Positions 15,909 through 24,713 of a stretch of DNA of 64,000 nucleotides are shown here, in pieces. Below the pieces are notes generated by a model. That model made no database searches. It was not told the DNA's origin and saw nothing but the letters and a program-made list of their open reading frames with translations. This DNA comes from Geranomyces variabilis (Eukaryota; Chytridiomycota; Chytridiomycetes; Spizellomycetales; Powellomycetaceae), in assembly GCA_027603065.1 (NCBI GenBank), contig JADGJP010000024.1:346659-410658 (forward strand). The letters are read 5' to 3'. The position numbers and the translations under genes were made by a program. Each line of letters begins with the position of its first letter. The stretch's first letter is position 1.

Positions 15909-17217
15909 GCAATAAAAAGGAAACACAGGCAACGAGAGCCTAGCGGGTCCGCGAGCGCATGTAACGGTGGTAATTACACCCGGAAGAGTGGTGTGGTGTG
16001 AGGGAGAGAGAGAGAGAGAATGAGCGACGTGAGCGGCTGGCGGTTGACGGGTTTAGCAGGGATTATGCAAGCTGCGTTGGTTGCATGTGCTTTTTTGAAG
16101 GGTCCCTCGATGTGCTTCGCCTTGTTGACCGGAATCGTCGGGTGTTTCCAAGCTGGTGGAAGTCGCGGGAAAAGGGGAGGAAGGGAGACTCCCAAGGGGA
16201 AAGAAAGGTCCCCGGCACGGAGACAAAAAACTCTGAGGGGGCGGGGCAGCAGCCAGCGGCCGGGCGGGGCGGGTTACGTGCGTGGGTGTTGGTTGGCCGT
16301 ATCTCTCTCGGCGTGCCTCTTTTCAGGCAGAGGCAGACCGCTTTTCCCTTTCTCTGGGCAAGCAAAGCGGTTGGGGTTGTGCTGACACTGCTGAGCGCTG
16401 TCCGTTTTTCTAGGAAGTTTTTGTTGTGTGGACGCGCCCCGATTGTTGGCGGCGGAGCACCACCACCACCACCACCAGTGTCCAGTGTCCACCACCAACA
16501 TGGGGCGGGCGCCCGCCTGTTTTTGCGTGCGCGGGGGCAATTTAGCGCCCCGAGCGAGACAGGCCGAGCGGGACGAGCAGAGAAAGCAGAGAGAAAGCAG
16601 CAGAGAAAGCAGCAGAGAAAGCAAAAATGCTTTTTGTCTTTTGCCCAAAAAACGCCGGAAATCGGCAGGAGAATAATAATGAGCCGAACCCGCCCGCCGC
16701 TCTCACTCCTTTTCGGCCCGCCCGCCCGCTTGGGGGCAATGCGCGCGCATGCACAGTGCACACGAATCACGAGTCACGATTGCTTGCCTTGCCATGGATG
16801 GATCGATGGATGGATGGATGATGGACCGATGACGTTTTTGGCTCGTGCTTTAGTGGCACGCAACCAGCGGCCGGCGGGGGCGGCTCGGTTGCGACTCTCT
16901 CTGTCTGGACTCTGGCTGGACTCTTGAACCTATGGATCCCCGTGCGGGTGCGGCAGTTCGGCAGTTCGGCCCAGCAAACGGAGGGCGCCACGGCAACGGT
17001 CCGCACGGAGGTCACGGAGCACGGGCTCAGCTATCACGGCGCGCGGTGGCTGTGCTGGCTCTCGCTCGCTCGGCCCCTCTCTCCGCCCGTTGCCCCCCAA
17101 CCCTCGCTCGCTCTTCGCTGCATGTAACTCAAGACTCTCGCCAACTCCCACCCCCGCGTCCACGCCAAGTTAAATATTTATACAAAATAGAATAGACATA
17201 TAGAGGTCGTCGTCGCT
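15909..17217. promoter_or_regulatory. Long divergent intergenic region with simple repeats
   Basis: This 1.3-kb gap separates the zinc-finger gene (minus) from the hydrolase gene (plus). It contains a (ACC)n tract near 16460, AGAGAGAG near 16005, AGAAAGCAG repeats near 16580-16620 and a GGAT tract near 16795-16820. A T/A-rich patch at 17170-17205 lies 15-50 bp upstream of the hydrolase ATG and may be a core promoter. Open frames here are repeat-driven and do not look coding. Confidence 0.5.
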
Positions 17218-18855: not shown

Positions 18856-20700
18856 AAATGGGACTGGTCATGATGATGATGATGACGATCATGCACCATC
18901 TTTGTTTATCTTTCTTCGGCTTTGTGGTATACCCCGCCCGTCTTCGCAGCCGAAGGGGAGGGAAAAGTGGGGTGACGGACTCAAAATAGAATAGACTTTT
19001 TTTTCATGTTAGACCAAGCTAATGTCTGGGTGACACGCCACGCTGGTGTGACTCATTCTGCCCTCGGCGGTTTCGCTAGCAAAATGCTACCACCACCATC
19101 TCTAATGCAAGGGCTGAACGACCATTTACAGCAGCGCCTTAATGACGGCCGAGATGTTTGCCCCGATGGCGTCAGTATCTGCTTTCAAGAGAATGCCTGG
19201 TGCAATGGTGCAATGTTTCAAGGTGAAAACCGTGCGCGGGCCCACACACAGTTACCTCAAAACACAAAATCCTTTGTAACTCGGTCGAAAAGCATCGTAC
19301 AGCCTGGACGCTGGCCATTTCAGACCCGCGAGGGCCGGTTCTACGCGGTCGTGGCGATCGTTTAGTGGTGGGATGTCAGCGGGGGGGGGGAGAGGGGGGG
19401 CGTGATTTCGAGCATGTGCGCATGCTTCTACCTCAAAACATAAAATTCGAGAGCGCTTTGGACAGCGCAACGCTTCAGCTATTTGCTTCCCTGCTTTTGT
19501 TCCACATGCTCAATAAAGATTTGTCCCATCTCTATGAATTTGTCTTTTCAGTTTTGGTTTTTGAAGCCATTGCAAGAGATGCCAGTGTAAAGCCTAAGCA
19601 ATTGCCGGTGTACTAAAGGGCACACGGGAGCTGTCAAATAGCATCAGCGCCGTAAAGTAACAAGGTTGATGATGCCGGGTTTGGTTTTGCAACCGGAGCG
19701 AGACTTCAATTAATAACTTTTGCGCAAGTTATATATTCTGTGCACTTCATATATATTTTGCCTGAATTCAATTAGGACCCTCGAGGCGCTCCATACTTAC
19801 TAGATACGGCTTGCAATCTATTACAATATAAAGGACTAACTTAGTCAAGTCATTGACTCGACTAATGACTATAATAATATTGGTCACTCTTAAGTCAAGA
19901 GCAAGCCAGTCATGAGTTTGGTTGACCAACCAGCAGTCAAGTCACGAAAATGGCTTGACTTGATTATAGTCTATATAAACCCATTTGACCGCCTTTGTTC
20001 GGAAGGTGGTTCCAACCACAGGGGAGGTGACCATTCGGATTGTGAGGTCCAACACGCGCATTCAACCGCCATCAACCGCCCGTCTCTGCTATACGAGCTA
20101 TACGACCAGGGCGTACATAATAGGCGGAGTGAAGCAACGATTCCTTCTTGCTGAAGCATCCTCCGTTTGGCACGTCCTCCACACAAGGTAGGGTAAAGTA
20201 GACTTCTCACGGACGGGCTTCCAGGAGTAGGCAATCCTAGTTTGTTCTTCCACTTGACATCTCCTTCCGATCCAGGGCCGCGGGCTGAATCGAGCGACAC
20301 TAGGGCAATGCCGCTTGCTCCCTTTCGCGGTGGATCGGTGGCGTGCTGCTTGACTAGCCGCATATCCAACGCGACTGGATCAAATGCGCAGTCAGCAATT
20401 CTCAATCTTGCTCACGTTCGCCACGAGGTACGAGAATTCGAGTTTTCACGGCCTCAAGAAATGGATTGTTCTAAGCCTTTTTTTTCAAAGTCTTACGTGT
20501 CGTGTAATCAACAATAGCTTTTCGGACCCGAGGGCGAGGCGAGCTGCTCCCCTGTGCGAAGCGGATGGTCGTCAGTCAGTAAGCTGAGCATCCTCAACCT
20601 TGCGCCCGGCTCGCATAAGGTTAGAAAAATGTCTTGCACAGGTTGTTATTGTCCTCCAGGTTCTGATCCACTTTCTTGGCATCTTTCTTTATAGGGCGGA
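18856..20700. other. Gene-poor start of accessory island
   Basis: No coding gene is supported here. At 18967-19009 there is a G-rich to AAAATAGAAT to T-run segment that recurs at 24666-24713. A run of G occurs at 19381-19400. Around 19840-19975 the sequence is dense in GTCAAG/CTTGAC words on both strands. The rest looks like spacer with scattered short open frames. Confidence 0.5.
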
Positions 20701-20733
20701 GGACTGAAAGGGCTTCGCCAGGCGATAGGCTAG

Positions 20734-20889
20734 CTGTTCCCCTTTGCGAAGCGGAGCAGTGATGAGTCGGCGGATGCCACTTGCCTCGCCTCAGTGTCCG
20801 GCGTAGCCATACCCAAACTTTCAGTCAGCAGGCAGCCAGGTTTGCCCCTTTGCGAAGCGGCAAACCCATGGGTCGGCGGATGTCACCCG
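20734..20889. repeat. Two tandem double-hairpin elements, family A/B
   Basis: Copy 1 at 20734-20783: stem CTGTTCC/GGAGCAG around the 12-base loop CCTTTGCGAAGC, then 4 bases later a short stem around the loop CGGCGGATGCC. Copy 2 at 20839-20889: perfect 8-bp stem GGTTTGCC/GGCAAACC around the identical loop CCTTTGCGAAGC, then stem GGGT/ACCC around CGGCGGATGTC. The loops are conserved and the stems differ yet remain complementary, so the structure is selected or copied as a hairpin. A more decayed copy of the first loop (CCTGTGCGAAGC) is at 20551-20562. Confidence 0.8.
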
Positions 20890-20928
20890 CTGCTTGCACA
20901 AGAGGCCAGTAGTTCGTGCTTGGGCTAT

Positions 20929-21193
20929 CCACGCACAGTTGCGACTCTGCGTGGTGATGGGGCGACAGCTGTCTCCCGCCCTGCACCTTTTAGGCTACTG
21001 GTCCCGCCGTCCCACCCGGGAGGAATAGAGCTGACACGTGCTAGCTCTGTACAGTTGCGACTCTACAGATTGAAGGTGCCGTGGATACGCGCCGCACGTA
21101 TCGCTCTTAGTACTCCGACTGAGGTTAGAAGTTGACCAACTAGCCACGCACAGTTGCGACTCCGCGTGGTGACGGGGCGACGGCGGTCTCCCG
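20929..21193. repeat. Three hairpin elements, family C/D
   Basis: All three share the 12-base loop CAGTTGCGACTC. Copy 1, 20929-20954: stem CCACGCA/TGCGTGG. Copy 2, 21046-21069: stem TCTGTA/TACAGA. Copy 3, 21144-21169: stem CCACGC/GCGTGG. Each is followed by a second hairpin. After copies 1 and 3, exactly 4 bases downstream, the second loop is GCGACAGCTGTCT or GCGACGGCGGTCT closed by GGG/CCC. After copy 2 it is an unrelated stem GATACG/CGTATC at 21084-21102. The layout matches the A/B pairs upstream. Confidence 0.8.
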
Positions 21194-22520
21194 TTGGGCA
21201 ACGTCTCCTTGGTCAATGATGTATTCTGTGTTAGTGCTTCATTTTGCTGGTAAGGGGCTTCAGCAATACGCGCAGCACCTGTTACGTGATTATATTGAAC
21301 GCTAACAAAATGTTTACATTGTTTCTTTTGAGCCATCTCTTGGTAGTAATTCCAATGGCTGCTCGCTGCACATAGCCGCCCAGTAGCGAAAATTTCACGG
21401 TTTTCTGCACACTAAAGTTCATGAGTGTACGTAAGAGATGAAAAATGCCCTTACTTCTTGCTCATTGGTTGACTATCGCCTACTTTTAGCCCGTACATAA
21501 CCGACCCAGGACTACCCCGGGTGGACTTCCGGCAGTAGAGCTGTTTCATTGCAAATATAAATACTACTCTGTCAGCAAAGGAGAATCACTCATAAAAAGG
21601 AAACTTTGCATACACAGCCGTGAAACTTCTCCGCCTACACTGTTTGCAGTGCGGACTTGGGGACATAAGTGTCTGAGGGCGGTCCAATTGTTGCTATAAT
21701 ACTGTCGATTCATGCCCTTTGCTGTTTTATGAGCGTTTTGACTATTGTTCTGTCCGTTCTTCAGCGAAGAAGCTACGGCAGAGTTTGAGAACTTCCAGCT
21801 TGACCCTGGTGCGGCTTGAACATCGAGGTGCACTCCTGAAAGGGCTCTTTTTGTAGCGTCTTCAGAGCGAGTCATTACGCAAAGCAGTTCAGTAATACCA
21901 CAGCGAGATGCCGTTTTCCATAGCACAGTGCCCAAATAACAAATTGGACATATTCATAAAAAGCACGATTGCTCGATTGCTATGTTGTTAAATTTCGCCG
22001 TAGAAGGCACGCTTGGCACTCGAGTAGCAGACACGGTTGTGAATTACCGCTGACAGGGAAGGCCCTCCTCAAAAGTCCGTCACGATGACTCACCCACCCG
22101 CTTCCGTTCCCCGCAATGTGTCAACTAAAGAATAATCATAATAATAACAATGACAACGCCTGCAAATTTTGTAAGTGATGGCGCAATCCCAGCATTTGTG
22201 TGCAGTCCTTTTGTAAGCCGCGGAGGCAATCTCGGAAGAGCTTTCTTCGTGCCCGCGCCGAAAGGGAACCTGAAAAGGGAAAGAAGACCCGGCGCTCCCA
22301 AAGGGTAAAAGGGGCAAACAATGAGCCCCTACAACCCGAAGCGTTACAGTCCATCTTCTTTTCAACGGCAAACCTCGACGAGCCCATCTTCTATTCATCA
22401 AACTTGTAGAGATCCACGCAAGACAAAAACAAGTGCAGGGTCGCGTCCAACGCTTCATACACCTCGGCGAGGATGATGCGGGTCAATGCGAATACTCTCT
22501 CCAAGCTCCACGCAAGCCGT
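21194..22520. other. Gene-free stretch in accessory island
   Basis: I see no supportable gene, RNA gene or further hairpin element here. Short open frames on both strands lack splice-linked extension. Local AT-rich patches are present near 21545-21570 and 21940-22000. Confidence 0.5.
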
Positions 22521-22790
22521 TAGCAAGCCCAACACCTCGAAGAGGGTCAGCTTGGTGTCCTGGTTGCCCGGCCCGCAATGAGCAGATGGTCATACTATAG
22601 CCGGAATTTAGCAAGCCTAAGACCTCGAAGAGGGTCAGCTTAGTGTAACTGGTTGCCGGCCTGCAACGAGCAGATTGGTCTTACCGAAGTCGGAAATTAG
22701 CAAGTCCACGACCTCGATTTAGCTTGGTGTCCTGGTTGCCGGCCCGCAACGAGCAGACTGTTCGTACCAAAGCCGCAAGTACCAAGCCAG
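22521..22790. repeat. Three-copy tandem repeat, unit about 89 bp
   Basis: Successive copies begin at about 22521, 22610 and 22698, each opening with TAGCAAG or AGCAAG. Shared core: ACCTCGAAGAGGGTCAGCTT, then GGTGTCCTGGTTGCC and CCGCAACGAGCAGA. The third copy has lost about 10 bp from the GAAGAGGGT part. Copies differ by scattered substitutions, so the array is old. It lies directly at the 3' side of the minus-strand relic. Confidence 0.8.
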
Positions 22791-24619: not shown

Positions 24620-24713
24620 ATACGGCATTGTGGAGATGCTTGCTCGGTGTTGAGGAATGCTGCAAGTGGGGTGGGGAACTTAAAATAGAATTAGAGACTT
24701 TTTTTTTTCTCAT
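24620..24713 (+). pseudogene. Decayed duplicate of the alpha/beta hydrolase 3' end
   Basis: The segment ATTGTGGA..TTG..TCGGTGTTGAGGA.TGCTG at 24628-24664 matches 18700-18737 in the last exon of the hydrolase gene. It is followed at once by GTGGGG...AAAATAGAAT...T-run (24666-24713), which matches the hydrolase 3' flank at 18967-19009. The roughly 230 bp between these parts in the original are missing, so this is a deleted, non-coding copy. It marks the far end of the accessory island. Confidence 0.6.

Follow-up and report, generated by a model that had tools for sequence, protein, structure and literature searches.

The locus considered here raises the question of what it means that a cluster of hairpins with seemingly fixed loops and unrelated stems, a combination described in a preliminary account of this DNA as the hallmark of mitochondrial double-hairpin elements (DHEs), is found among nuclear-type genes of a chytrid. 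Three answers had been offered: a dispersed family of nuclear hairpin elements, an inserted segment of mitochondrial DNA, or a structured RNA locus. The stretch of DNA analysed (the window) comprises the final 64 kb of contig C17; the assembly to which this contig belongs has 91 contigs and 23.8 Mb in total. The answer at which we arrive, and to which we give a slightly better than even chance of being right, is a putative nuclear noncoding RNA gene on the + strand with five tandem copies of a 60-nt three-way junction, each on its own arm, the transcript of which would be a five-site scaffold or sponge.

Five units of 60 nt on the + strand align over 60 columns without a gap, and all of them can form the same fold. 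It begins with a 4-bp closing stem (AGGC/GCCT, CAGC/GCTG, GGGC/GCCC, GTGC/GCAC, and CAAC/GTTG in the five units), which is followed by a 2-nt joining strand (TA; once CA) and by hairpin 1, in which 8 bp and, beyond a C.C mismatch, another 3 bp lead up to TGCG, a tetraloop of the UNCG type. A 3-nt strand with an invariant A leads to hairpin 2, whose 4 bp and 3 bp are set apart by a bulged C and whose tetraloop is GGAT in three units, AGCT in one, and GGCG in one, and from there the chain enters the closing stem again with 0 nt in between. The unpaired bases A6, C15, C26, A36, and C42, the whole TGCG loop, and G47 of the second loop are invariant across the units.

The two loops named in the preliminary description are indeed present as exact copies on the stems given there, CCTTTGCGAAGC at 20741 and 20847 and CAGTTGCGACTC at 20936, 21052, and 21151. 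They are not simply loops, however: each of these 12-nt sequences consists of a C, 3 bp, TGCG, the other side of the 3 bp, and a C. Being internally paired, the loops covary too (CTT/AAG versus AGT/ACT). The pairing of hairpins is also real, but the second hairpin is present in five of five units rather than in four, that of unit D having been overlooked; its stem differs from the others (GGTG C CGT GGAT ACG CGCC). Finally, the two hairpins are adjacent in all five units with a spacer of 3 nt, but a third covarying stem closes both of them, and the unit is therefore one domain and not two hairpins side by side.

How much of this could be due to chance? Near-matches to the loop and second-hairpin sequences occur in the window about as often as expected (11 versus 9.4, 10 versus 7.0, and 4 versus 4.3; 2 mismatches were allowed, and 3 in the case of the second-hairpin sequence). 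Nor is hairpin 1 by itself an unusual shape: a relaxed descriptor finds it 12 times on the + strand, 4 times inside the units and otherwise with different loops. The weight must therefore be placed on the whole unit. The five units can form 21–22 of 22 core pairs, whereas all other 60-nt windows of the 64 kb on both strands reach at most 18, and 15 first-order Markov sequences (64 kb, one strand each) reach 19 at most. Standard pairs fill 107 of the 110 alignment cells (five units times 22 pairs), and 18 of the 22 pairs have changed on both sides (3 of 4 in the closing stem, 9 of 11 in hairpin 1, and 6 of 7 in hairpin 2), these compensatory changes being scored on paralogous copies within one genome and not on orthologues. 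None of 500 column shuffles was as good as the whole structure on any of five measures of pairing and covariation. Slid registers pair to 36–50%, which is a biased control because the structure comes from the very sequences being tested. Similarly, the covariance model gives the five units 76–81 bits and the rest of the window at most 13.9 bits, and only the gap between these scores is informative because the five units are the training set of the model.

Averaged over the ten pairs of units, identity is 51% in paired and 82% in unpaired columns. That the paired columns are the less identical ones points to selection on the fold and on specific unpaired bases, as judged from paralogous copies in one genome. 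Two simpler descriptions were tried and rejected. A plain tandem repeat does not fit paired columns that are just 51% identical, the pattern being reversed, and a coding repeat does not fit units distributed over three reading frames (one shared by A and C, one by D and E, and one of B alone), so that no single repeat protein is encoded; the 133-codon open stretch that runs over the array in one + frame is out of register with the units.

Upstream of the five units there is a degenerate sixth copy (20530–20610, + strand). It has kept the sequence of hairpin 1 at 20537–20565, where 26 of 29 bases are identical with unit A, and has lost the fold: 20530–20610 folds no better than shuffles (z +0.6, as compared to z −2.3 to −3.9 for the five modules on the + strand) and is given 7.9 bits by the model (E 5.6). 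This copy has changed without compensation and is an internal control for loss of constraint on the fold. The control bears on the explanation that the array has no present function and that after tandem duplication its complementarity was kept up by a mutational process, namely templated correction in palindromes. Hairpin-templated repair can keep arms complementary, but it leaves unexplained the conserved unpaired bases, the retained G.U pairs, and a closing stem with two further hairpins inside it, and the sixth copy displays the outcome of unconstrained decay. We regard this explanation as highly improbable.

Beyond the core, the closing stem is prolonged as an imperfect arm in all five units, and 20702–21216 consists of five such arms nearly end to end. 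Modules A and B abut, D and E overlap by one base, and the other gaps are 6 and 15 nt; relative to A the units are offset by 106, 195, 311, and 410. The z-scores given here for single modules are somewhat favourable because the module limits were picked after the folds were known, and the arms were compared with 300 single-base shuffles of the flanks each. Module A with its arm, on the + strand like all the others, extends from 20702 to 20827 (core 20727–20786, hairpins 20733–20760 and 20764–20782); 22 of its 22 core pairs are possible and 21 are in the MFE structure of the module (−54.5, z −3.4), and as many as the 22 pairs of its arm were reached in 1 of 300 shuffles. Module B (20828–20897; core 20833–20892, hairpins 20839–20866 and 20870–20888) can likewise form 22 of 22 and is the only one with every core pair in its own MFE structure (z −3.1); its arm has 5 pairs, with as many in 26 and an energy as low in 10 of 300 shuffles. 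In module C (20904–21004; core 20922–20981, hairpins 20928–20955 and 20959–20977) 21 of 22 pairs are possible and 17 are in the MFE structure (z −3.9), the 15 arm pairs being equalled in 1 of 300 shuffles. Module D (21020–21117; core 21038–21097, hairpins 21044–21071 and 21075–21093) has 21 possible pairs and 19 in the MFE structure (z −2.3), and its arm of 12 pairs was matched in number by 37 and in energy by 14 of 300 shuffles. Module E (21117–21216; core 21137–21196, hairpins 21143–21170 and 21174–21192) has 21 possible pairs, 17 in the MFE structure (z −2.8), and 16 arm pairs, a number reached in 0 of 300 shuffles. The arms are thus clearly beyond the shuffles in A, C, and E and weak in B and D. 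The inner stem is of the CTT/AAG type in A, B, and the decayed copy (there CTG/AAG) and of the AGT/ACT type in C, D, and E, and it is likely from these two types that the units split early into two groups.

The modules fold well one by one, which is not the case when they are folded together. The MFE structure of 20702–21216 contains 21, 22, and 19 of the 22 core pairs of A, B, and D and none of C and E; that of 20500–21230 contains 22, 17, and 17 of B, C, and E, 3 of A, and 0 of D; and that of 20000–21600 contains 3 of A and 11 of B. Whichever of these longer stretches is folded, at least half of the core pairs are missing from two of the five modules. The whole five-headed shape therefore differs from what the energy model predicts for long stretches. 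It should be noted that fold predictions for long RNAs are unreliable, as they ignore folding during transcription and proteins. As modelled, the folding in context would fit separate small RNAs at least as well, and the main rival of a five-site scaffold is a cluster of this kind, with processing into separate RNAs: a polycistronic precursor would be cut into five stable RNAs of about 70–126 nt, each working alone, as in a snoRNA cluster. Modules that lie nearly end to end, each with its own closing arm, and that fold singly and not all together would suit separate molecules, and tandem duplication of small-RNA genes is common. Against this stand the lack of an Rfam match at the gathering threshold, permissive matches being confined to the − strand (E 2.7 and 6.8), and the lack of a T-run of at least 5 on the + strand within the array. 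We consider the precursor rather unlikely, though to be taken seriously.

Is the array to be read as RNA or as DNA? On the + strand the core cells comprise 98 Watson–Crick pairs, 9 G.U, 1 A.C, and 2 others; on the − strand the 9 G.U would read A.C. Counted by columns the bias is modest (6 G.U versus 1 A.C), and 3 of the 9 G.U belong to hairpin 1's outermost pair, whose assignment is based on + strand folds; without that pair the ratio by cells is 6 versus 1. Since RNA tolerates G.U and not A.C and since a cruciform is strand-neutral, the bias favours an RNA of the + strand over a DNA hairpin. Folding energies do not separate the strands; they are low on both, and in C and D lower on the − strand.

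These low energies on both strands are compatible with an element acting at the DNA level, a cruciform or single-stranded junction bound by a transposase or by a replication or recombination protein, with copies related to the mitochondrial DHEs. Fixed loops with changing stems resemble DHEs as these were characterized in the preliminary description, and CTAG or CTAT beside the hairpin is reminiscent of some transposon ends. The strand bias, the third stem, and the decayed sixth copy speak against it, as do the searches for further copies. For these the whole assembly was scanned with three exact loop-and-junction patterns, and the covariance model was then run on the loci returned. When combined with the 5′ joining strand, the loop pattern was found at 30 places, 5 of them the units (reversed-pattern control 11), and when combined with the 3′ part at 26 places including the 5 units (control 20); the TTTCGA-loop pattern was found at 21 places (control 15). 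The other 25, 21, and 21 matches include no complete module, modules with another loop being outside the reach of these patterns, and a plain DNA search of the assembly with 20650–21250 returned the self-match only. The best other locus (L019; 21.1 bits, E 0.0008) has hairpin 1 and the closing stem, some of their pairs being broken, and 2 nt where the second hairpin should be; in the next (L050; 16.4 bits, E 0.037) most stem pairs are broken or absent, and a third (L064; 13.4 bits) has just part of hairpin 1. Four of the 25 other matches to the first pattern are identical over 33 nt (C17:109309, C17:112993, C37:152573, and C40:46868) and are therefore repeated genome sequence; the model finds no module there.

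The proposed dispersed family of hairpin elements thus did not materialize, as no complete module beyond the five turned up among the pattern-match loci. Nor is the idea of an inserted mitochondrial segment borne out: the contig with cox1 (C65) has no pattern match, the core units have 57–68% G+C, and the array is located on C17 with nuclear-type genes on both sides within the window. A DNA-level element is unlikely in our opinion, and so is, at this locus, a mobile or mitochondrial double-hairpin element. The third proposal, a structured RNA locus, is supported by the three covarying stems, the G.U bias on one strand, and the decayed copy without a fold. As to cox1 itself, five pieces of it are found at C65:18128–23200, four with in-frame TAG and one of these also with TAA. 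In chytrid mitochondria TAG has an altered meaning, and the in-frame TAG in cox1 is in keeping with this.

If an RNA, it matches none of the known families. Rfam 15 (4227 models) has 0 matches in the 64 kb at the gathering threshold, and a permissive scan of 20400–21350 yielded the two − strand matches mentioned above. A known RNA family was therefore rejected (best E 2.7), and likewise an identity as tRNA or tmRNA. Viral and bacterial sequences yielded no more than chance-like matches. Narrow exact patterns returned 2 and 7 stretches from viral collections and 13 from bacterial ones, to which the model gives at most 18.3 bits (E 0.014; in 9 matches E does not exceed 1) as compared to 76–81 bits for the units, and in which pairs are broken; because the loci were chosen by part of the model's own sequence, these matches are taken as chance.

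The array lies between an alpha/beta-hydrolase gene (+ strand, ORF end 18855) and an area at 22.7–25.8 kb in which the 7 of 11 ORFs that were scanned have no Pfam match. The ornithine aminotransferase piece of the window shares 97% identity with its Geranomyces michiganensis counterpart and 90% with those of Fimicolochytrium and Thoreauomyces; judged by this single gene, the DNA appears to come from a relative of Geranomyces among the chytrids, order Spizellomycetales. Could the array belong to a neighbouring mRNA, as a long structured leader or tail by which that gene is controlled? The hydrolase gene upstream is on the same strand, and repeated protein-binding hairpins do occur in untranslated regions. 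However, there are 1.85 kb from the hydrolase stop codon to module A, the next + strand stop-to-stop ORF of at least 150 codons begins only at 22701 and is without a Pfam match, and promoter-like signals are found between the hydrolase gene and the array. We judge a leader or tail to be very unlikely. The signals are at 19843–19979 on the + strand: nine TGACT/AGTCA motifs at 19843–19960, which are the densest cluster of the window (9 in 170 bp; 123 in total), and then a TATA-like TATATAAA at 19972, one of two occurrences on the + strand of the window. These putative sites are consensus matches only. Transcription of the array, perhaps from the TATA-like box near 19972, would give a + strand transcript that begins about 0.5 kb before the sixth copy. 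No 3′ end emerged from the sequence: within 19.9–22.7 kb there is neither AATAAA nor ATTAAA, AATAAT is found at 22131 and 22140, and T-runs of at least 5 on the + strand are only at 20478 and 21848. Matches to the polymerase III A-box are all on the − strand, and those to the B-box all have 2 mismatches.

Some other features of the surroundings may be mentioned. The motif AAAATAGAATAGAC is present at 17184–17197, just ahead of where the hydrolase gene probably begins, and a second time at 18983–18996, past its stop codon, where a T-run follows; a variant, AAAATAGAATTAGAGAC, also followed by a T-run, is found at 24682–24698, about 0.7 kb upstream of the probable beginning of the aminotransferase gene. 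At 19252–19387 there is a dispersed repeat of about 135 bp with copies on many contigs, often next to each other (e.g., on C21, C89, C45, C28, and C57), to which most of the at least 51 matches besides itself belong when 18950–20700 is used as query. An 88-bp unit in three tandem copies occupies 22520–22775, beyond which, to about 24.3 kb, there are partial matches to C26, C6, and C40.

What could a noncoding RNA with five such modules be good for? One RNA domain would have been duplicated in tandem long ago, and the copies would since have been held to one fold with fixed unpaired bases. Fixed unpaired bases on changing stems look like a protein recognition site, and we infer that one partner, a protein or an RNA, could recognize a surface made up of the conserved junction, the tetraloops, the bulged C, and the C.C mismatch. 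That five recognition-like sites follow one another suggests a multi-site scaffold or sponge. The arms would keep the heads apart, and their sequence would be free to change as long as pairing persists. A more far-reaching idea, that the array represents an undescribed class of fungal nuclear RNA, five-armed and assembling five copies of one protein into a particle or condensate, is possible but doubtful. In the mostly open-access literature on Geranomyces, Spizellomyces, chytrid noncoding RNA, and three-way-junction repeats no such RNA was found. How many long noncoding RNAs have selected structures is disputed. Here the five paralogous heads are a natural alignment that shows which bases matter, and covariation is strong enough to be visible within one genome, which long noncoding RNAs do not usually show.

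RNAs that act as a scaffold or sponge by means of repeated binding modules are known, for example roX, the A-repeat of Xist, NORAD, and meiRNA. They share with the array that a recognition motif is present in several copies in a long noncoding RNA, and differ from it in that the module of the array is a full three-way junction with diverged stems from an early-diverging fungus; we know of no sequence relation between them. The telomerase CR4/5 domain and the purine riboswitch are three-way-junction domains and thus of the same fold class with short junction strands, whereas the array has five copies and no Rfam match, and its conserved bases presumably differ from theirs. In the repetitive hairpin-forming elements of sponge mitochondria, which are sometimes in tandem, it is the stems that are conserved, with slight variation in the loops (PMC2800124), so that relative to the array the conserved and variable parts are reversed. 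DHEs were first found in mitochondria of Chytridiomycota (PMC10085805). Their hosts include Allomyces, other zoosporic fungi, and the Schizosaccharomyces octosporus group, and there are DHE-like elements in Candida albicans. Several DHEs of fission yeasts do not differ at all between two species or do so at 2 nt of a loop (PMC10085805), whereas the modules of the array are only 51% identical at paired positions within one genome. The likeness of the array to DHEs consists in two neighbouring hairpins in several copies and in the fixed loops on variable stems stated in the preliminary description. But DHEs are mitochondrial, while the chytrid array is nuclear, was found at one tandem locus, and has a third covarying stem and a G.U bias on one strand.
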